Shown here: positions 4,493 through 32,206 of the stretch, piece by piece | Position numbering within the stretch: the stretch's first letter is position 1 | Layout of the letters: every line of letters starts with the position of its first letter | IMG/VR virus record: IMGVR_UViG_3300032287_003559 | Coordinates: 111,136-175,135 of that record | Strand: one strand, 5' to 3' | DNA length: 64,000 nt | Origin: a virus | The notes under the pieces: model-generated | What the model was told of the DNA's origin: nothing | Databases searched by the model: none | Seen by the model: the letters and a program-made list of their open reading frames with translations, nothing else | Translations under genes and position numbers: made by a program

Positions 4493-5188
4493 ATGAGAGT
4501 AGATCTTCATAACTTCTTTAAGCATTATGATGAAAATAATCCAAAACATGTTGCAGCAGTAGAGCAACTTGAAGTGGATCTTGCAAGTAAGAATCCAGAT
4601 TTGATCGATGATGCCTCAAACTGGGTTCGCATCTATAGAACAGTTCCTGCAGTTCCGGGAATTCTTCCAGTTCCTTATTATCCACAGACAGATAACTACA
4701 GAGACGCACAAAGAACCTGTAACTCATCTTCTTGTGCGATGTGTCTAGAATACTTTAAACCAGGCACGTTACAAGGGGCAAAGGGCGATGATGCCTATAT
4801 TCAAAAGGTATTTGCTATTGGTGATACAACTGATCACTCCGTCCAGACGAAAGTTCTGGAAGGTTATGGAGTTAAGTCACACTTCAGTTACAATCTTTCT
4901 TTCTCTGATCTTGATCGTGAGCTTGCCGCTGGGAGACCTGTCGTTATCGGGATTCTTCATAGGGGCACTTTATCTGCACCTACTGGTGGGCACATGGTTG
5001 TAGTCATCGGTAAAAAGGGTGAAGACTACGTAGTAAATGATCCGTATGGATCTTTGAATGATGGTTATACGGGAGCAGTAACCAACGGTAAAGGTGCTGT
5101 ATATAAGAAATCAGATCTGATGTATCGTTGGTTAGATCATGGTAAGGATAGAACTGGTTGGGGTCGTATTTTTGATATAAAAAAGTAG
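4493..5188 (+). CDS. C39-family papain-like cysteine peptidase; zero-frame product of a frameshift pair
   Basis: 231 residues from ATG 4493 (a TTG at 4484 is in frame). The C-terminal two thirds match peptidase_C39-like domains: catalytic Cys76 in RTCNSSSCAMCLEYF, His167 in GGHMVVVIG and Asp183 in VVNDPYG. The N-terminal ~50 residues are helical and polar. It likely cuts a peptide bond in the host wall or in a structural precursor (inference). The frame ends with codons AAA AAG TAG, and that AAAAAAG is a -1 slippery heptamer in the correct phase. A shift would bypass the stop and add a lysozyme domain, giving a protein of about 394 residues. Confidence 0.85.
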   Translation: MRVDLHNFFKHYDENNPKHVAAVEQLEVDLASKNPDLIDDASNWVRIYRTVPAVPGILPVPYYPQTDNYRDAQRTCNSSSCAMCLEYFKPGTLQGAKGDDAYIQKVFAIGDTTDHSVQTKVLEGYGVKSHFSYNLSFSDLDRELAAGRPVVIGILHRGTLSAPTGGHMVVVIGKKGEDYVVNDPYGSLNDGYTGAVTNGKGAVYKKSDLMYRWLDHGKDRTGWGRIFDIKK

Positions 5189-25483: not shown

Positions 25484-26278
25484 ATGCCTACCAAAAGGAC
25501 AGTAGATCAAATTAAAGCAAATTTACTTCGTCCAGCACTTACTTCTTATTTTGAAGTTGAGATTCCAAAAATATCATCTAGAACTGGTGAATTTGAATCA
25601 TTCTTAAGTAATAATGGCGTTTTATTCAATCAAGAAAAACTTAATTTACTATGCTCCGAAACTTCTCTTCCAGGTTCTTCACTTGCCACCCATGAAATCA
25701 ATAATGATTATATGGGAGTAACTGAAAGACATGCATATAGAAGAATATATGATGATCGTATTGATTTTTCTTTTTATGTAGATGCTGAAAATTATTTACC
25801 CATCAGATATTTTGAGTCATGGATAAAGTGGATTGTGGATGAGAGTATTGCATCTGGAGATAAAGGTCCTGTAGGAGTACTGAATAAATCATATTTTTAT
25901 AGAATGAAATATCCTGATGATTATGTTTGTGATAGTGGATTAAAAATTACAAAATTTGAAAGGGATCATACTAATAGATCATTGGAGTATGAATTTGTAA
26001 GAGCATATCCAATATCTATTACATCAATGCCAGTTTCGTATGATACATCATCTCTTCTAAAATGCACAGTTTCATTTACATATCTAAGATACGTTCTTAA
26101 ACCTTCAAACGGAAATAGAGATAATGTATCCTCTATTCAGAGAGAAATAAAATCTGGAGATCCTTCATCGCCAGTAACACAAGCAGCAATAAATGGATCA
26201 TATTATGGTCCTGCCTTTCAAACGAATGAAGAAGCAAATAGGCAGGCTGCAATTTTAAGAGGGGAGAATGTGCAATAA
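25484..26278 (+). CDS. Tail-tube-fold protein (gp54/gp19-like)
   Basis: 264 residues. LLCSETSLPGSSLATHEINN and the beta-rich RIYDDRIDFSFYVDAENYL resemble the tail-tube family that includes gp19 and baseplate gp54; gene order beside gp48 favours the baseplate tube initiator. The N-terminus (PALTSYFEVEIPKI) is also typical. Exact assignment uncertain. Confidence 0.65.
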   Translation: MPTKRTVDQIKANLLRPALTSYFEVEIPKISSRTGEFESFLSNNGVLFNQEKLNLLCSETSLPGSSLATHEINNDYMGVTERHAYRRIYDDRIDFSFYVDAENYLPIRYFESWIKWIVDESIASGDKGPVGVLNKSYFYRMKYPDDYVCDSGLKITKFERDHTNRSLEYEFVRAYPISITSMPVSYDTSSLLKCTVSFTYLRYVLKPSNGNRDNVSSIQREIKSGDPSSPVTQAAINGSYYGPAFQTNEEANRQAAILRGENVQ

Positions 26279-26310: not shown

Positions 26311-27030
26311 ATGCCTTTACCTAAAATTGCTACTCCAATATATCAACTTGAATTGCCATCAACAGGAGAGTCAATTCAATATAGACCATTTTTAGTAAAA
26401 GAAGAAAAAGTATTAGTAATTGCTTTGGAAAGTGAAGATACTAAGCAAATTACTACTGCGATTAAAACAGTAATCAAAAATTGTATTCTTACCAAAGGGA
26501 TCAAGGTAGAATCTCTTCCAACCTTTGATATTGAATATTTGTTTTTGAATATTCGTGGTAAGTCTGTTGGGGAAGAAATTGAAGTAAACGTTATTTGTCC
26601 TGATGACCAAGAGACAAATGTTTCTATAAAAATTGATTTAGATTCTATCAAAGTAGAAAAGAGTGAGAATCATACAAATAAAATTAAAGTAGATCCAAAA
26701 ATTATGATGGAGATGAAATATCCATCATTGGATCAGTTTATTAAAACAAACTTTGATTTTAAAAATGATAATGCAATGGATCAATCATTTGAATTGATTG
26801 CATCATGTATTGATAAAATTTATACTGAAGATGAGGTGTGGGTTGCAGCGGATGTGACTAAAAAAGAACTGATTGAATTTTTGGAACAAATGAATTCATC
26901 TCAGTTTAAGGAAATTGAGAAATTTTTTGAAACAATGCCAAGACTTTCGCATAAAATTTCAGTAACAAATCCAAAAACAAAAGTTGAAAGTGAAGTTGTT
27001 CTGGAAGGGTTAGCATCTTTTTTCGCATAG
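26311..27030 (+). CDS. 26: Baseplate hub assembly protein gp26-like; zero frame of a candidate frameshift pair
   Basis: 239 residues of the T4 baseplate gp26 family: MPLPKIATPIYQLELPSTGE, YRPFLVKEEKVLVIALESED, and the central VNVICPDDQETNVSIKI. Helps assemble the baseplate hub. The gene ends TCT TTT TTC GCA TAG; T TTT TTC (27018-27024) is a slippery heptamer in phase, and a -1 shift leads straight into the next ORF. Confidence 0.85.
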   Translation: MPLPKIATPIYQLELPSTGESIQYRPFLVKEEKVLVIALESEDTKQITTAIKTVIKNCILTKGIKVESLPTFDIEYLFLNIRGKSVGEEIEVNVICPDDQETNVSIKIDLDSIKVEKSENHTNKIKVDPKIMMEMKYPSLDQFIKTNFDFKNDNAMDQSFELIASCIDKIYTEDEVWVAADVTKKELIEFLEQMNSSQFKEIEKFFETMPRLSHKISVTNPKTKVESEVVLEGLASFFA

Positions 27031-27048
27031 CCCTGGTCCATATGGACC
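27018..27048 (+). promoter_or_regulatory. Candidate -1 frameshift site between gp26 and the gp51-position ORF
   Basis: Heptamer T TTT TTC (27018-27024) in the gp26 phase, two codons before the TAG stop. Ten bases later GGTCC/GGACC (27035-27039 with 27044-27048) forms a short GC stem. The -1 frame reads through R-I-A-L-V-H into the downstream ATG with no stop. Confidence 0.6.
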
Positions 27049-27218
27049 TTGAGAATTACTTTAGACTTAATTTTGCTTTGATTCAGTACCATAAATATTC
27101 ACTATGGGAGATTGAAAACATGATTCCCTGGGAAAGGGATATTTACGTTGAGTTATTAAAGCAACATTTAGAAGAAGAAAAACTAAAACAACAATCAAAT
27201 GGCGGTCAATCCTTCTAA
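27042..27218 (+). CDS. gp51-position baseplate hub / tail-chaperone-like small protein
   Basis: 58 residues from ATG 27042 (MDLENYFRLNFALIQYHKYS, then MIPWERDIYVELLKQH). Lacks a Shine-Dalgarno. In T4 gene 51 follows 26; the PWER-x-Y pattern is also seen in proteins paired with tail chaperones by frameshift. Overlaps the next gene by 20 nt. Either a separate product or a gp26 C-terminal extension. Confidence 0.65.
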   Translation: MDLENYFRLNFALIQYHKYSLWEIENMIPWERDIYVELLKQHLEEEKLKQQSNGGQSF

Positions 27219-29373
27219 AAATTTGAATGCCTTAGTTCCATATAAGGGAAAAGGAGGGACTGATCTTGTTAGTGAAAAAATAGATGAAAGAATATTAAGA
27301 CTTCTTGGTCTAGAGGATGTATTTGATATCGATTATGATACTTATATTTCTCTTCTTAGAGAAAGAATGGCTTCTGCTAGAATGTCTAAACAATCCATTC
27401 CAACAGAAGAAGTTGAATTAATAACTGAAGAATGGAAAAGAATAAAGAAAAAAAATGGTAGGTTTAGAATAAAAAAAATTACTGCAGAGAGTTTTAAAAA
27501 AGGTAGTTCTGTAGGAATTCAGTTAGGAAAGCAAAAGTTTCTTAATGGTCTATCTATATCATCTAAGAAATTAGCATTACCTCCAGCAATTAATAAAATG
27601 TCTGGTGGGAATGATATTGAAGATATTAAAAATGCTCTCGCAGAAATTATTAGCAATTTAACCATACAGAATAAAGATCAGAAAAAAATATTAGAAAGAC
27701 AAAGATTTGATAGTGAAAAAGAAAGAAGAGCATCTAGAGAGGCACTTTTAGAAAAAGGTTTTTCTAAAGCAATAAGTGCTGCTCAAAAGATGTTAGCACC
27801 TGTTAAATCTTTGCTTGATAAAATTATTGATGCGATTGTTGCTATTTTTATTGGAAGATCTATTGTAAAACTTATTGAATGGTTTTCTAATCCAGACAAT
27901 AAAGAAAAAGTAAAGAGCATTTTCAAATTTCTTGGAGAACATTGGCCAAAACTTCTTGCTCTGTATTTGAGATTTGGAACAGGTCTTGGAAGATTTATTG
28001 GTGGATTATCATCACTCCTAATTAAAGGTACGTTAAGACTTGTTCAGGTAGCAGCAAGACTAGCAGCAAGGGCAGGATTAAAAGGTGCTGGTAAAGTTGC
28101 TGGATTTTTAGGTGGTCGTGGTGGAAAATTTCTAGGTGCTGGACTAGAAGTTGCTGCCACCGTTGGATCAACAATGGCATTGAGTAAAGGTATAGAAAAT
28201 TTTAGTGGATTTAAATTTGCTGGAGGAGGATTAGCAAACTTTAAAAAGTTTTTTGGATTTTCTGGTGGTGGGACTAGACCTGGATATATCAGTGGACAGA
28301 AAGGAATAGATAAAATTCCTGCTATGTTAAGTGATGGTGAATTTGTTATGTCTCGTGGTGCTGTTGAAAAGTATGGTACAGATACCTTAGAAGCAATGAA
28401 CGCTGCTGGTGGTGGAACTAATAGACCACGAATGATTAGTGGGACAACTTATGCTGCTGGTGGAGGGCAAATTGGAACTCGTAGTGTTGCGCCTTCATTA
28501 TCTGGGAATGAAAAAATTGCTTATAATCAATTGCAAATGAATTTCCCAACAGCAAAACCTTATCATATTGCTGCTGCTCTTGGAAACTTTTCAGTTGAAG
28601 CTCCTGGATTAAAACCAAATACTGCTCAATACGGTGGAGGTCCTGGTAGAGGAGTGGCGCAATGGGAAACTCCTGGAAGATGGGATACTGCTGTAAAGAG
28701 ATACGGTCCAGGAATTTTTAACAGCTTAAGTCAGCAAATGGATTATGTTAAGTATGAAATGGATACTGGTAATCCAGATTCTCAAGGAAGACCTCAACTT
28801 CCATGGGGAAGAAATGCAAAGAGCTCTTGGTTAGGTTCTAAAAACTTAATTGAAGCAACCAAAAATTTTATGATCGGATACGAGGCACCTGGTGTTCCAC
28901 ACGAATCTGAGAGAATAGCATCTGCTAAAAGAATATTAAATTCAGGATCTCCAGCATCTTCAAATATTGCAGCGAATCCAAAGGTTCAACCGACACAGAA
29001 ACCAAATATATTCCAGAGATTGGGATCTGGAGTTGCATCTATATTTGGTCTTAATCAACCAGCAAAAGCAGAACCAATTATTAAATCAAAACCAAAACCA
29101 AGATTTGCGGGAGGACTTGCACCAGATTCTTCACAAAGAAAATCATCATCAATTCCAACATTGACTTTTTCTGCATCAAAGTCTAGGGCATCTCAAAGAA
29201 ATATTTCTGCTCCAATGAATTTAATGCCTGAAATTGTATATGAAGTTGTTGCACCTAGCACAACAAAACCATCTGGAGGTGGAACTGGTGGTTCTCCTCA
29301 AATACCTTCATTTAGTAATGTTCATGCATCTAATAATGCAGGTAGAAATGCAAAGTTACTTGGAGTAAGATAA
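27199..29373 (+). CDS. Tape-measure-like protein with phage tail lysozyme domain
   Basis: 724 residues. Residues ~200-360 are hydrophobic, Gly/Ala/Leu-rich helices, followed by the tape-measure signature KGIDKIPAMLSDGEFVMSRG. Residues ~434-575 look like a tail lysozyme: HIAAALGNFSVEAPGL with the catalytic Glu, then GRGVAQWETPGRW. Pro/Lys/Ser-rich tail. Likely sets tail length and helps penetrate the wall. Confidence 0.75.
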   Translation: MAVNPSKNLNALVPYKGKGGTDLVSEKIDERILRLLGLEDVFDIDYDTYISLLRERMASARMSKQSIPTEEVELITEEWKRIKKKNGRFRIKKITAESFKKGSSVGIQLGKQKFLNGLSISSKKLALPPAINKMSGGNDIEDIKNALAEIISNLTIQNKDQKKILERQRFDSEKERRASREALLEKGFSKAISAAQKMLAPVKSLLDKIIDAIVAIFIGRSIVKLIEWFSNPDNKEKVKSIFKFLGEHWPKLLALYLRFGTGLGRFIGGLSSLLIKGTLRLVQVAARLAARAGLKGAGKVAGFLGGRGGKFLGAGLEVAATVGSTMALSKGIENFSGFKFAGGGLANFKKFFGFSGGGTRPGYISGQKGIDKIPAMLSDGEFVMSRGAVEKYGTDTLEAMNAAGGGTNRPRMISGTTYAAGGGQIGTRSVAPSLSGNEKIAYNQLQMNFPTAKPYHIAAALGNFSVEAPGLKPNTAQYGGGPGRGVAQWETPGRWDTAVKRYGPGIFNSLSQQMDYVKYEMDTGNPDSQGRPQLPWGRNAKSSWLGSKNLIEATKNFMIGYEAPGVPHESERIASAKRILNSGSPASSNIAANPKVQPTQKPNIFQRLGSGVASIFGLNQPAKAEPIIKSKPKPRFAGGLAPDSSQRKSSSIPTLTFSASKSRASQRNISAPMNLMPEIVYEVVAPSTTKPSGGGTGGSPQIPSFSNVHASNNAGRNAKLLGVR

Positions 29374-29377
29374 GTAG

Positions 29378-32206
29378 ATGGAACCAAAAGCATTAGCACC
29401 TGCAAAAATAAATCCAACAAAACTTTTAGGTGGTTCTATTTTTTCTACTAAAAAAATTAATACATCTAATCTTATAGATGATACTGTTACAATTCGAAGA
29501 AGTGATTTATCAATCATTAAAGGTCAAGTTATAGAAGTAAAAAACTTGATTAAAAGTTCTACTTTATTAAAACAAGCAGAATTGGAAAGGAAAAGAAAGG
29601 AAAAAGAAAAAGATAAATTTACAAAAAAAGAAACAGGACTTGAAGCAAAGAAAGAAGAACCTGGTGCAAATAAAGTTAAAGTTCCTGGACTTCCTAAATT
29701 AGGATTTTTAGATAGAATTAAAAATATTATCTTTACTGTTTTGCTTGGAAGATTTATTGTTAAGATGCTTCCAAATCTTCCAAAACTGGTTGGAATTGTA
29801 AAAGCAGTTAGTACTGGAGTAGAATTTGCTGCTGATTTTGCTGTAGGTTTGATTAATGCCTTAGGTACTTTTATTCAAAAAGCAGATGAGGCATCTATAC
29901 AAACTCGTAAGTTTCTTAAAACTGTAGGTGGTGATAATACTGTTAAACTTTTTGATGGATTTACTAGTGCAATAGACAAAGTTATTGAAGCAAGTATTAT
30001 TGCTGCTCTTGCTGTTGCTGATTTGGGTGGTGATGGTAAAGAAGTATCAATTAAAAGAGGATTTGATCGATATGGGAGAAAGGTTGGAACAGAAGTGCAA
30101 GAAAGATATCTGCAAAGATATGGTGAAAAACAATTTGTAGGGAGATTCGGGCAAAAGGCACTCCAAAGAGTTGCTACAAGAGGAGCAGGACAAACAATAG
30201 AAAAAGGATTATTAAAAACTCTTGTTAAGAGAATACCAATAGTTGGAGGATTGCTTGACTTTGCACTTAATTATTTTGTTTTTAAAGAACCTCTTGGAGA
30301 ATCTGCATTTAGAGCAGCTGGTTCAACATTAGTCAGTGTTCTTGGAGGAGCGATAGGAAGTATTTTTCCTGGTCCAGGAACTATTGTTGGTGCAGCACTT
30401 GGAGGAGTTGCGGGTGATGCACTTGCATCCACATTATATGATATGATTTTTAAAAATAAAGTACCGACCCAAAAGAAAGTTCAAGGTCGTGCTCAAGGTG
30501 GTCCTGTAACTAGAGGTGGAAAACTTGTTGGAGGTCCTGCAAAAAGAGGAGTTTCTAAAACCAAAAAGAGAGGAGTAACTGCTCAACCAACAAAATTAAA
30601 ACCGGGTGTTGATATTGGTGGTCAAAAAAATATTGAAAAAGTCTTTCCATCACCAACTGGTAAAGATAAAGATAAACAAGTAAACCCTCTTGAATATATT
30701 AAAAAGAGTTATGATAGAGTTAGTAAGGCACCATTCTTTGGTCCTTTATTATCATTAACTACTAAGGCATTATCAGGTCAAAAACCATCACAGTTAGATT
30801 ATTTTATTGCTGCTCAGGGAATTAATAACTGGATGAATATAACATTTAGTTCTGGTGTCTTAAGAACTGGAGGCGCATTTGCTGGGGGAGGGGAGGCAAA
30901 TGCTGAAATGTTCTTAAAAGGTGAAGATCTTACTCAAGTAATTGCAAAATCTTTAGAGGATAATGCATCGCAACAACTTGAAGGAAGTATTCAAGATTTG
31001 ATGAAGCAGATGATGTTGAAACCGAGTGAGGAATCAAAGAAAGAACCTAGCACAGGACAACCTAGTGTTGGTGGAGAATATTCTCCAGAGGGAATTCAGG
31101 GTGAGATATATCAATATCTTCTTTCCAAAGGTCTGGATGATAATAAGGCACTTGGTATTATGGCGAACATATTTCGTGAAAGTGGATTTAGACCCGGAGT
31201 TTCTGAATCTGGTGGTCCTGGAGTTGGTTTATTCCAATATTCAAGTGCGGGAAGAAAGGATGCATTCTTAAAAGCAGTACCAGACTACGCTACGAATTGG
31301 AAAGGGCAAATTGATTTTGCATTAAAAGACGATGTAGCTCCACAATATTTACAAAAACAGTTTTCTTCTCCACAAGAAGCTGCAGACTGGTGGATGAGAG
31401 AATGGGAAAGACCTGCGGAATATATTCAAAATACAGAAGGACCAAGAATACACAGAGAATATCTTGCAAGTCTTGAAAAATATAGAACTAAAAAAGGATA
31501 TGAACTCCCTACCGGAGTTGCAAAAGGTTTTGATGGATATATTACTGGAGATCCGTCAAGTCCTAACTATGATCCATCTCATGGTGGTGGTAATTATCAT
31601 GATCATTTATCATTTAAAGATAGAGCAACTGCCGAAAGAGCATATAAATTTTTTACATCTAAGGGATTTAAAGTTACTGAATTTAAAGGATATGGTGCTG
31701 GGGTTACTGGACCACACAGCGGAGCTGGTTCTTTACATCATTCTGGACTTGCATTTGATATTCCTGGATATCAGTGGGGAGGTGTTGGTGCTATAGGACA
31801 AAAAGAATACAGTGGTTCAGCAAAAGTTAGAGAAGCACTATCACAATTTAGATCAGGAAAATCTTTATTTGGTGGTGGTCTAACTGGAAAGGGTGGACTT
31901 ACCATGACACATCCTGGAGAATATATTATTGATAAAGATTCTGTAGATGCTTTTGGAATTGATTTCTTTGATATCATTAATCAAACTGAAAGTGTTGCAC
32001 AAAGAAAAAATTCAGCAAAACAACTGATGAGTATTCTTCAGTTCTATGCTGGTTATGAGGCAGGTGGAAGACAAAAAATTAAAGTGAAAGTTCCTGCTCC
32101 ACAAGTATCATATGTTACTGTACCCGTTCCTATTGGTGGAGGAATGGTGATGACTGGTAGTTCTTCTGTAGACTCTGATTATGATTCGACATATGCTGGA
32201 CATTAA
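29378..32206 (+). CDS. Large tail/baseplate protein with lysozyme and M15-like peptidase domains
   Basis: 942 residues, a partial parallel of the gene before. Charged N-terminus (KERKRKEKEKDK-like helix), hydrophobic helices ~100-360, then a tail lysozyme-like domain ~568-704 (GIMANIFRESGFRPG with Glu; GVGLFQYSS). Residues ~707-804 hold SLHHSGLAFD, an exact fit to SxHxxGxAxD of M15-type zinc carboxypeptidases, with a second His in YHDHLSF. The C-terminus has TMTHPGEYIIDKDSVDAFG as in tape-measure ends. Two different wall-cutting activities are predicted. Confidence 0.72.
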   Translation: MEPKALAPAKINPTKLLGGSIFSTKKINTSNLIDDTVTIRRSDLSIIKGQVIEVKNLIKSSTLLKQAELERKRKEKEKDKFTKKETGLEAKKEEPGANKVKVPGLPKLGFLDRIKNIIFTVLLGRFIVKMLPNLPKLVGIVKAVSTGVEFAADFAVGLINALGTFIQKADEASIQTRKFLKTVGGDNTVKLFDGFTSAIDKVIEASIIAALAVADLGGDGKEVSIKRGFDRYGRKVGTEVQERYLQRYGEKQFVGRFGQKALQRVATRGAGQTIEKGLLKTLVKRIPIVGGLLDFALNYFVFKEPLGESAFRAAGSTLVSVLGGAIGSIFPGPGTIVGAALGGVAGDALASTLYDMIFKNKVPTQKKVQGRAQGGPVTRGGKLVGGPAKRGVSKTKKRGVTAQPTKLKPGVDIGGQKNIEKVFPSPTGKDKDKQVNPLEYIKKSYDRVSKAPFFGPLLSLTTKALSGQKPSQLDYFIAAQGINNWMNITFSSGVLRTGGAFAGGGEANAEMFLKGEDLTQVIAKSLEDNASQQLEGSIQDLMKQMMLKPSEESKKEPSTGQPSVGGEYSPEGIQGEIYQYLLSKGLDDNKALGIMANIFRESGFRPGVSESGGPGVGLFQYSSAGRKDAFLKAVPDYATNWKGQIDFALKDDVAPQYLQKQFSSPQEAADWWMREWERPAEYIQNTEGPRIHREYLASLEKYRTKKGYELPTGVAKGFDGYITGDPSSPNYDPSHGGGNYHDHLSFKDRATAERAYKFFTSKGFKVTEFKGYGAGVTGPHSGAGSLHHSGLAFDIPGYQWGGVGAIGQKEYSGSAKVREALSQFRSGKSLFGGGLTGKGGLTMTHPGEYIIDKDSVDAFGIDFFDIINQTESVAQRKNSAKQLMSILQFYAGYEAGGRQKIKVKVPAPQVSYVTVPVPIGGGMVMTGSSSVDSDYDSTYAGH

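Follow-up and report, generated by a model that had tools for sequence, protein, structure and literature searches.

In the 64,000-nt stretch of viral DNA analysed here (the window, which is part of a 175-kb IMG/VR virus record and comes from a T4-type marine cyanophage), the end of gp26 very probably carries a programmed -1 ribosomal frameshift site that yields two isoforms of a tail assembly chaperone (TAC), TAC-N and TAC-NC, in the manner of lambda G/GT. We base this reading on the signal itself, its conservation, a covarying RNA structure, the gene architecture and a fold resemblance, and from these we infer the shifting, its efficiency and its role in assembly. Most ribosomes would end at the gp26 TAG and release the 239-aa short form (TAC-N), and a minority would pause at T TTT TTC, aided by an upstream Shine-Dalgarno (SD)-like element and a downstream hairpin. 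Both tRNA-Phe would then slip back one base and 64 more codons would be read in the -1 frame, for a predicted fusion (TAC-NC) of 238 + 64, or about 302, aa. The lambda gpG/gpGT pair suggests a division of labour in which TAC-N would cover the tape measure protein, with tail tube subunits being brought in by the C-terminal domain.

Sites of this kind are already known. Vladimirov, Gautam and Davidson (Virology 2022, 566:9-15) are said to have identified the TAC genes of T4-like phages. Two papers cite Vladimirov et al. 2022, one for a short gene accompanied by a longer, fused one in T4-like phages (PMC10885494) and the other for poly-T slippery sequences in T4-like TAC-N genes (PMC12846349). 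The original prediction had called such a frameshift not usually described for T4-like genes 26/51. That statement was too broad, in that T4-like gp26/gp51 had already been proposed as tail assembly chaperones according to these two papers. Our literature search, outside the full text of Vladimirov et al. 2022, found no description of a frameshift in cyanophages. The annotated phage records that we examined show two genes at this place or omit gp51. On sequence grounds, we regard the window site as a well-supported, unannotated case. Under this reading, two neighbouring annotations ("baseplate hub" and "hub assembly catalyst") would become one frameshifted chaperone gene in hundreds of marine phage genomes, and the short, often startless gp51 of cyanophages would be accounted for. 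The compact, strongly conserved U UUU UUC signal could additionally be used for tests with cyanobacterial ribosomes.

Layout and conservation of the junction

Table 1. Features of the gp26/gp51 locus, in window coordinates.
Feature	Position	Strand	Evidence
gp26 (TAC-N), predicted zero-frame product, 239 aa	26311..27030	+	PF12322 E 6e-75; phrog_150 E 4e-80; predicted fold pLDDT 85
Internal Shine-Dalgarno-like element GGAAGGG, 8 nt 5' of heptamer	27003..27009	+	SD-like 4-mer statistics across relatives
Slippery heptamer T TTT TTC	27018..27024	+	78/78 near relatives; 197 T TTT TTC + 16 T TTT TTT of 217 distinct junctions
Predicted -1-frame extension (gp51 / TAC C-terminal domain), 64 codons + stop	27024..27218	+	phrog_634 E 3e-28; phrog_150 profile 238-281
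gp26 stop TAG, bypassed by a -1 shift	27028..27030	+	reading frames
Hairpin GGTCC-ATAT-GGACC, 10 nt after heptamer	27035..27048	+	pairing across 76 relatives; synonymous-codon control z -2.3
Annotated-style gp51 ATG, lacking a Shine-Dalgarno, overlapping hairpin loop and stem	27042..27044	+	ORF reading
Tail tube-like gene upstream of gp26	25484..26278	+	phrog_45 tail tube E 4e-35; Phage_TTP_2 E 1e-15
724-aa gene downstream: weak tape-measure similarity and tail lysozyme domain	27199..29373	+	PF18013 E 2e-16; several tape-measure PHROGs E 4e-5 to 4e-3

The original prediction placed an in-phase T TTT TTC shortly before the gp26 stop, a stop-free -1 frame from gp26 into the next ORF, and a GGTCC/GGACC stem 10 nt downstream; coordinates and reading frames bear out all three, and our analysis supports its candidate -1 frameshift. 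The 3' end of gp26 reads TCT TTT TTC GCA TAG, with the heptamer in X XXY YYZ phase. The codon after a -1 slip would be CGC at 27024, from which the frame is open to a TAA at 27216-27218; read backwards, it extends, still free of stops, to 34 nt upstream of the gp26 TAG. The hairpin comprises a GGTCC (27035-27039) and GGACC (27044-27048) stem with an ATAT loop, and a 10-nt spacer (27025-27034) separates it from the heptamer. The gp51 ATG lies partly within this hairpin, 11 nt past the gp26 stop, and tblastn matches of the -1-frame product in relatives start ahead of it, at residue 1. Profile matches of the -1 frame are to phrog_634 ("baseplate hub assembly catalyst") and to the far end of phrog_150, and the latter match hints that fused forms may exist. 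Because the 175-kb record contains one gp26-like and one gp51-like place, and no second place of either type, there is no separate long gene, and we rejected the idea that a long gp51 is encoded somewhere else in the genome.

The gp26 site is the single in-phase T TTT TTC of the window, which has 59 putative genes with 18,756 codons. All 78 intact near relatives have the heptamer unchanged and exactly 10 nt ahead of the gp26 stop. A wider set, drawn from viral contigs and annotated phages, spans cyanophages to KVP40 and Aeromonas, Cronobacter, Stenotrophomonas, Sinorhizobium, Agrobacterium and Pelagibacter phages, with protein identity to the window gp26 of about 22-91%. Its 217 distinct junctions, which are to be counted as related sequences and not as independent events, place the gp51 domain in the -1 frame in all but one case (216) and have an in-phase heptamer in 213 (T TTT TTC in 197, T TTT TTT in 16), the conservation in relatives that the original prediction had proposed as its check. 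The other three of the 216, from Ackermannviridae, lack a canonical heptamer, and the one junction outside the 216 is of the T4 type, lacking the -1 arrangement. Beyond the 217, TTTTTTC is present in both phiWae14 and the jumbo phage Atu_ph07; a viral-contig scan with the Atu_ph04 protein found no relatives. In Pelagibacter phages of the Mosig type (five examples and similar ones) 31 nt separate the heptamer from the gp26 stop: the zero frame is seven codons longer, and the slip site and -1 domain are unmoved.

Conservation of the site is far beyond chance, as is evident at the level of individual codons. In the 213 junctions with a heptamer, the codon that holds its first T is AGT, TCT, GAT, AAT, GCT or GGT, thus T-ending in every case, for the amino acids Ser, Asp, Asn, Ala and Gly. 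The Phe pair that follows is TTT TTC (197) or TTT TTT (16) and never begins with TTC, the commonest pair elsewhere in gp26 being TTC TTT. The near clade has 126 columns with a conserved amino acid, of which 4 use a single codon; the heptamer codons account for 2 of these 4, and of the single-codon columns codon 238 alone is fixed on TTC. One might suppose that a Phe-Phe pair near the gene end is merely encoded TTT TTC by chance or amino-acid constraint, given that the phage is A+T-rich and that TTT is its preferred Phe codon. However, TTT TTC would be expected in about 20% of Phe pairs, as against 197 of 213 observed with TTT TTT as the remainder, and the heptamer is unique in phase within the window. 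Codon statistics and conservation rule this explanation out, and we assign it next to no probability.

Start of gp51 and the putative stimulatory elements

Two separate proteins would also be obtained if gp51 were translated from its own ATG (27042) by coupling to gp26 termination, with the heptamer incidental. This would agree with the database records, which annotate two genes, and with the short distance between the gp26 stop and the ATG; many genes of the phage likewise lack a Shine-Dalgarno sequence. The latter fact bears on the original prediction too, which had pointed to the missing Shine-Dalgarno of the gp51 ORF: the observation is true of its ATG, but alone it says little because so many window genes are without one. 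A survey of the first ten -1 codons, a stretch that lies ahead of the conserved gp51 core or overlaps with it, was more informative. Among the 213 junctions, 85 have no ATG there and 76 have no ATG, GTG or TTG, and only 13 of the 128 relatives with an ATG have an SD core. With start codons missing in 76 of 213, gp51 is not generally makeable from its own start, and this answers the objection, raised with the original prediction, that the product might come only from its own ATG. Restart would moreover need no T TTT TTC with a T-ending codon before it, yet this is found in nearly all relatives; nor would it need a covarying hairpin over the ATG, and the long gp51 of T4-type phages contains the N-terminal domain. 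We rejected independent gp51 initiation as disfavoured by the missing starts, and consider the coupled two-protein account very unlikely. In the window phage, the ATG at 27042 could permit some free gp51 to be made in addition to the frameshift product.

Over 76 relatives, 85% of cells in the window hairpin are paired; sliding the register by one leaves no more than 53%. Compensatory changes are present, with pairs such as GC/AT and CG/TA taking each other's place. Predicted RNA structure peaks directly 3' of the heptamer. It is more stable than in synonymous -1-frame codon randomisations, with a mean z of -2.4 (n=213) and -2.3 for the window, against a mean z of -0.16 at a control site 60 nt further on. 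Other clades have hairpins in other registers, including a 12-14 bp stem in the S-PM2 group that also has double changes; one hairpin common to all clades is ruled out by these differences in register. At 10 nt, the spacer is long by the standard of stimulatory hairpins at bacterial -1 sites, and this counts against the frameshift reading.

Upstream of most sites there is an SD-like GAGGG or GAAGGG. An SD-like 4-mer falls 7-18 nt upstream of the heptamer in 181 of 213 junctions, compared with 9.8% of in-phase background windows. The enrichment is explained in part by a conserved Glu-Gly; the Glu codon at the element is GAG in 112 cases and GAA in 38, and the gene-wide ratio is 1675:3498. The -1 signal of E. 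coli dnaX consists of an SD-like element about 10 nt upstream, the heptamer A AAA AAG and a downstream hairpin. The window site has the same three-part layout, but with U UUU UUC as the heptamer, and the proteins are unrelated. Elsewhere in the window, a gene at 4493-5188 (+) has A AAA AAG in phase 10 nt from its 3' end; the -1 frame there runs on without a stop for 488 nt into a lysozyme-like ORF, and this may be the first frameshift candidate of the original prediction.

Probable identity of the predicted products

The original prediction likened the site to the tail assembly chaperones of lambda, Mu and P2, and the possible TAC fold of gp26, together with the domain make-up of T4 gp51, supports the likeness. 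In the PDB, the highest-probability fold match of the gp26 AlphaFold model was the HK97 tail assembly chaperone (2ob9; probability 0.84, with a weak E of 0.85), and YqbN (3klu) was also among the matches, ranked lower. A sequence search of the PDB with gp26 and gp51 returned nothing relevant and no sequence-level homolog. As in lambda G/GT, and also P2 E/E', HK97 and similar phages, two ORFs overlap in the -1 frame near the end of the first, a slippery heptamer is present, and short and extended isoforms are predicted. The placement may likewise be that of the lambda type, with a tail tube-like gene on one side and large genes akin to tape measures on the other, although the tape-measure matches of the large downstream ORFs are weak here (E 4e-10 to 4e-3); in the phiM12 record, tape-measure similarity is annotated downstream. 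The window site differs from the lambda type in its sequence family (PF12322), its larger N-domain and its covarying downstream hairpins. The lambda slippery heptamer is G GGA AAG, versus T TTT TTC in the window. The adjoining large tail genes at 27199-29373 and 29378-32206 (+) both have weak tape-measure matches and lysozyme-like domains.

It is also conceivable that the frameshift is real and that it yields genuine parts of the baseplate hub, in line with the database names, rather than tail assembly chaperones. T4 gp26 was indeed placed in the hub by genetics (PMC3004832), but the same review counts gp26 and gp51 among the chaperones of hub assembly and has gp51 missing from the particle. 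The highest-probability, though weak, fold match of gp26 is to the HK97 chaperone, the order of tail tube, gp26/51 and large tape-measure-like genes would fit a TAC, and Vladimirov et al. 2022 are said to name the TACs of T4-like phages. We believe that hub parts are an unlikely identity for these products, and we retain the chaperone assignment. A further comparison can be made with the TAC frameshift of Pakpunavirus and Vandenendeviridae (PMC12846349), which likewise belongs to a myovirus TAC and combines a poly-T slippery sequence with conservation of the -1 frame; it differs in that its motif is GTTTTT.

T4-type phages and Ackermannviridae

T4 gp26 and gp51 are homologous to the window pair, and the family relationship holds for both parts (PF12322 for gp26 and phrog_634 for the -1 frame; Table 1). 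In T4-type phages (two examples), gp26 and gp51 are paralogs transcribed in opposite directions, away from each other, without a slippery site; in one such phage they measure 208 aa and 249 aa, and both match PF12322 full length. Of this T4-type gp51, the first 201 residues align with PF12322, and the match to phrog_150 covers 13-280 of 282; the protein therefore consists of the N-domain plus the domain encoded by the -1 frame of the window, that is, a fused protein. The short and long forms thus come from two genes in T4-type phages, whereas the window phage has no separate full-length gp51. This suggests that duplication and inversion replaced the frameshift in the T4-type lineage, and the proposed exchange of frameshifting for gene duplication in T4 provides a natural comparison.

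More broadly, we see about equal grounds for and against the view that a frameshift cassette (SD-like element, T TTT TTC and clade-specific covarying hairpins) was ancestral to the TACs of the T4-like superfamily, with T4 derived by gene duplication and Ackermannviridae keeping the -1 fusion with a non-canonical slip site. In Ackermannviridae (ten examples), the gp51 C-domain lies in the -1 frame of gp26 without a canonical heptamer, and the junction before the stop has a conserved ATTTTCAT(T/C), or CTTTTTC or CTTTTC in Vibrio phages. The -1 product of phage Maynard matches 282 phage records, many of them unannotated at this place.
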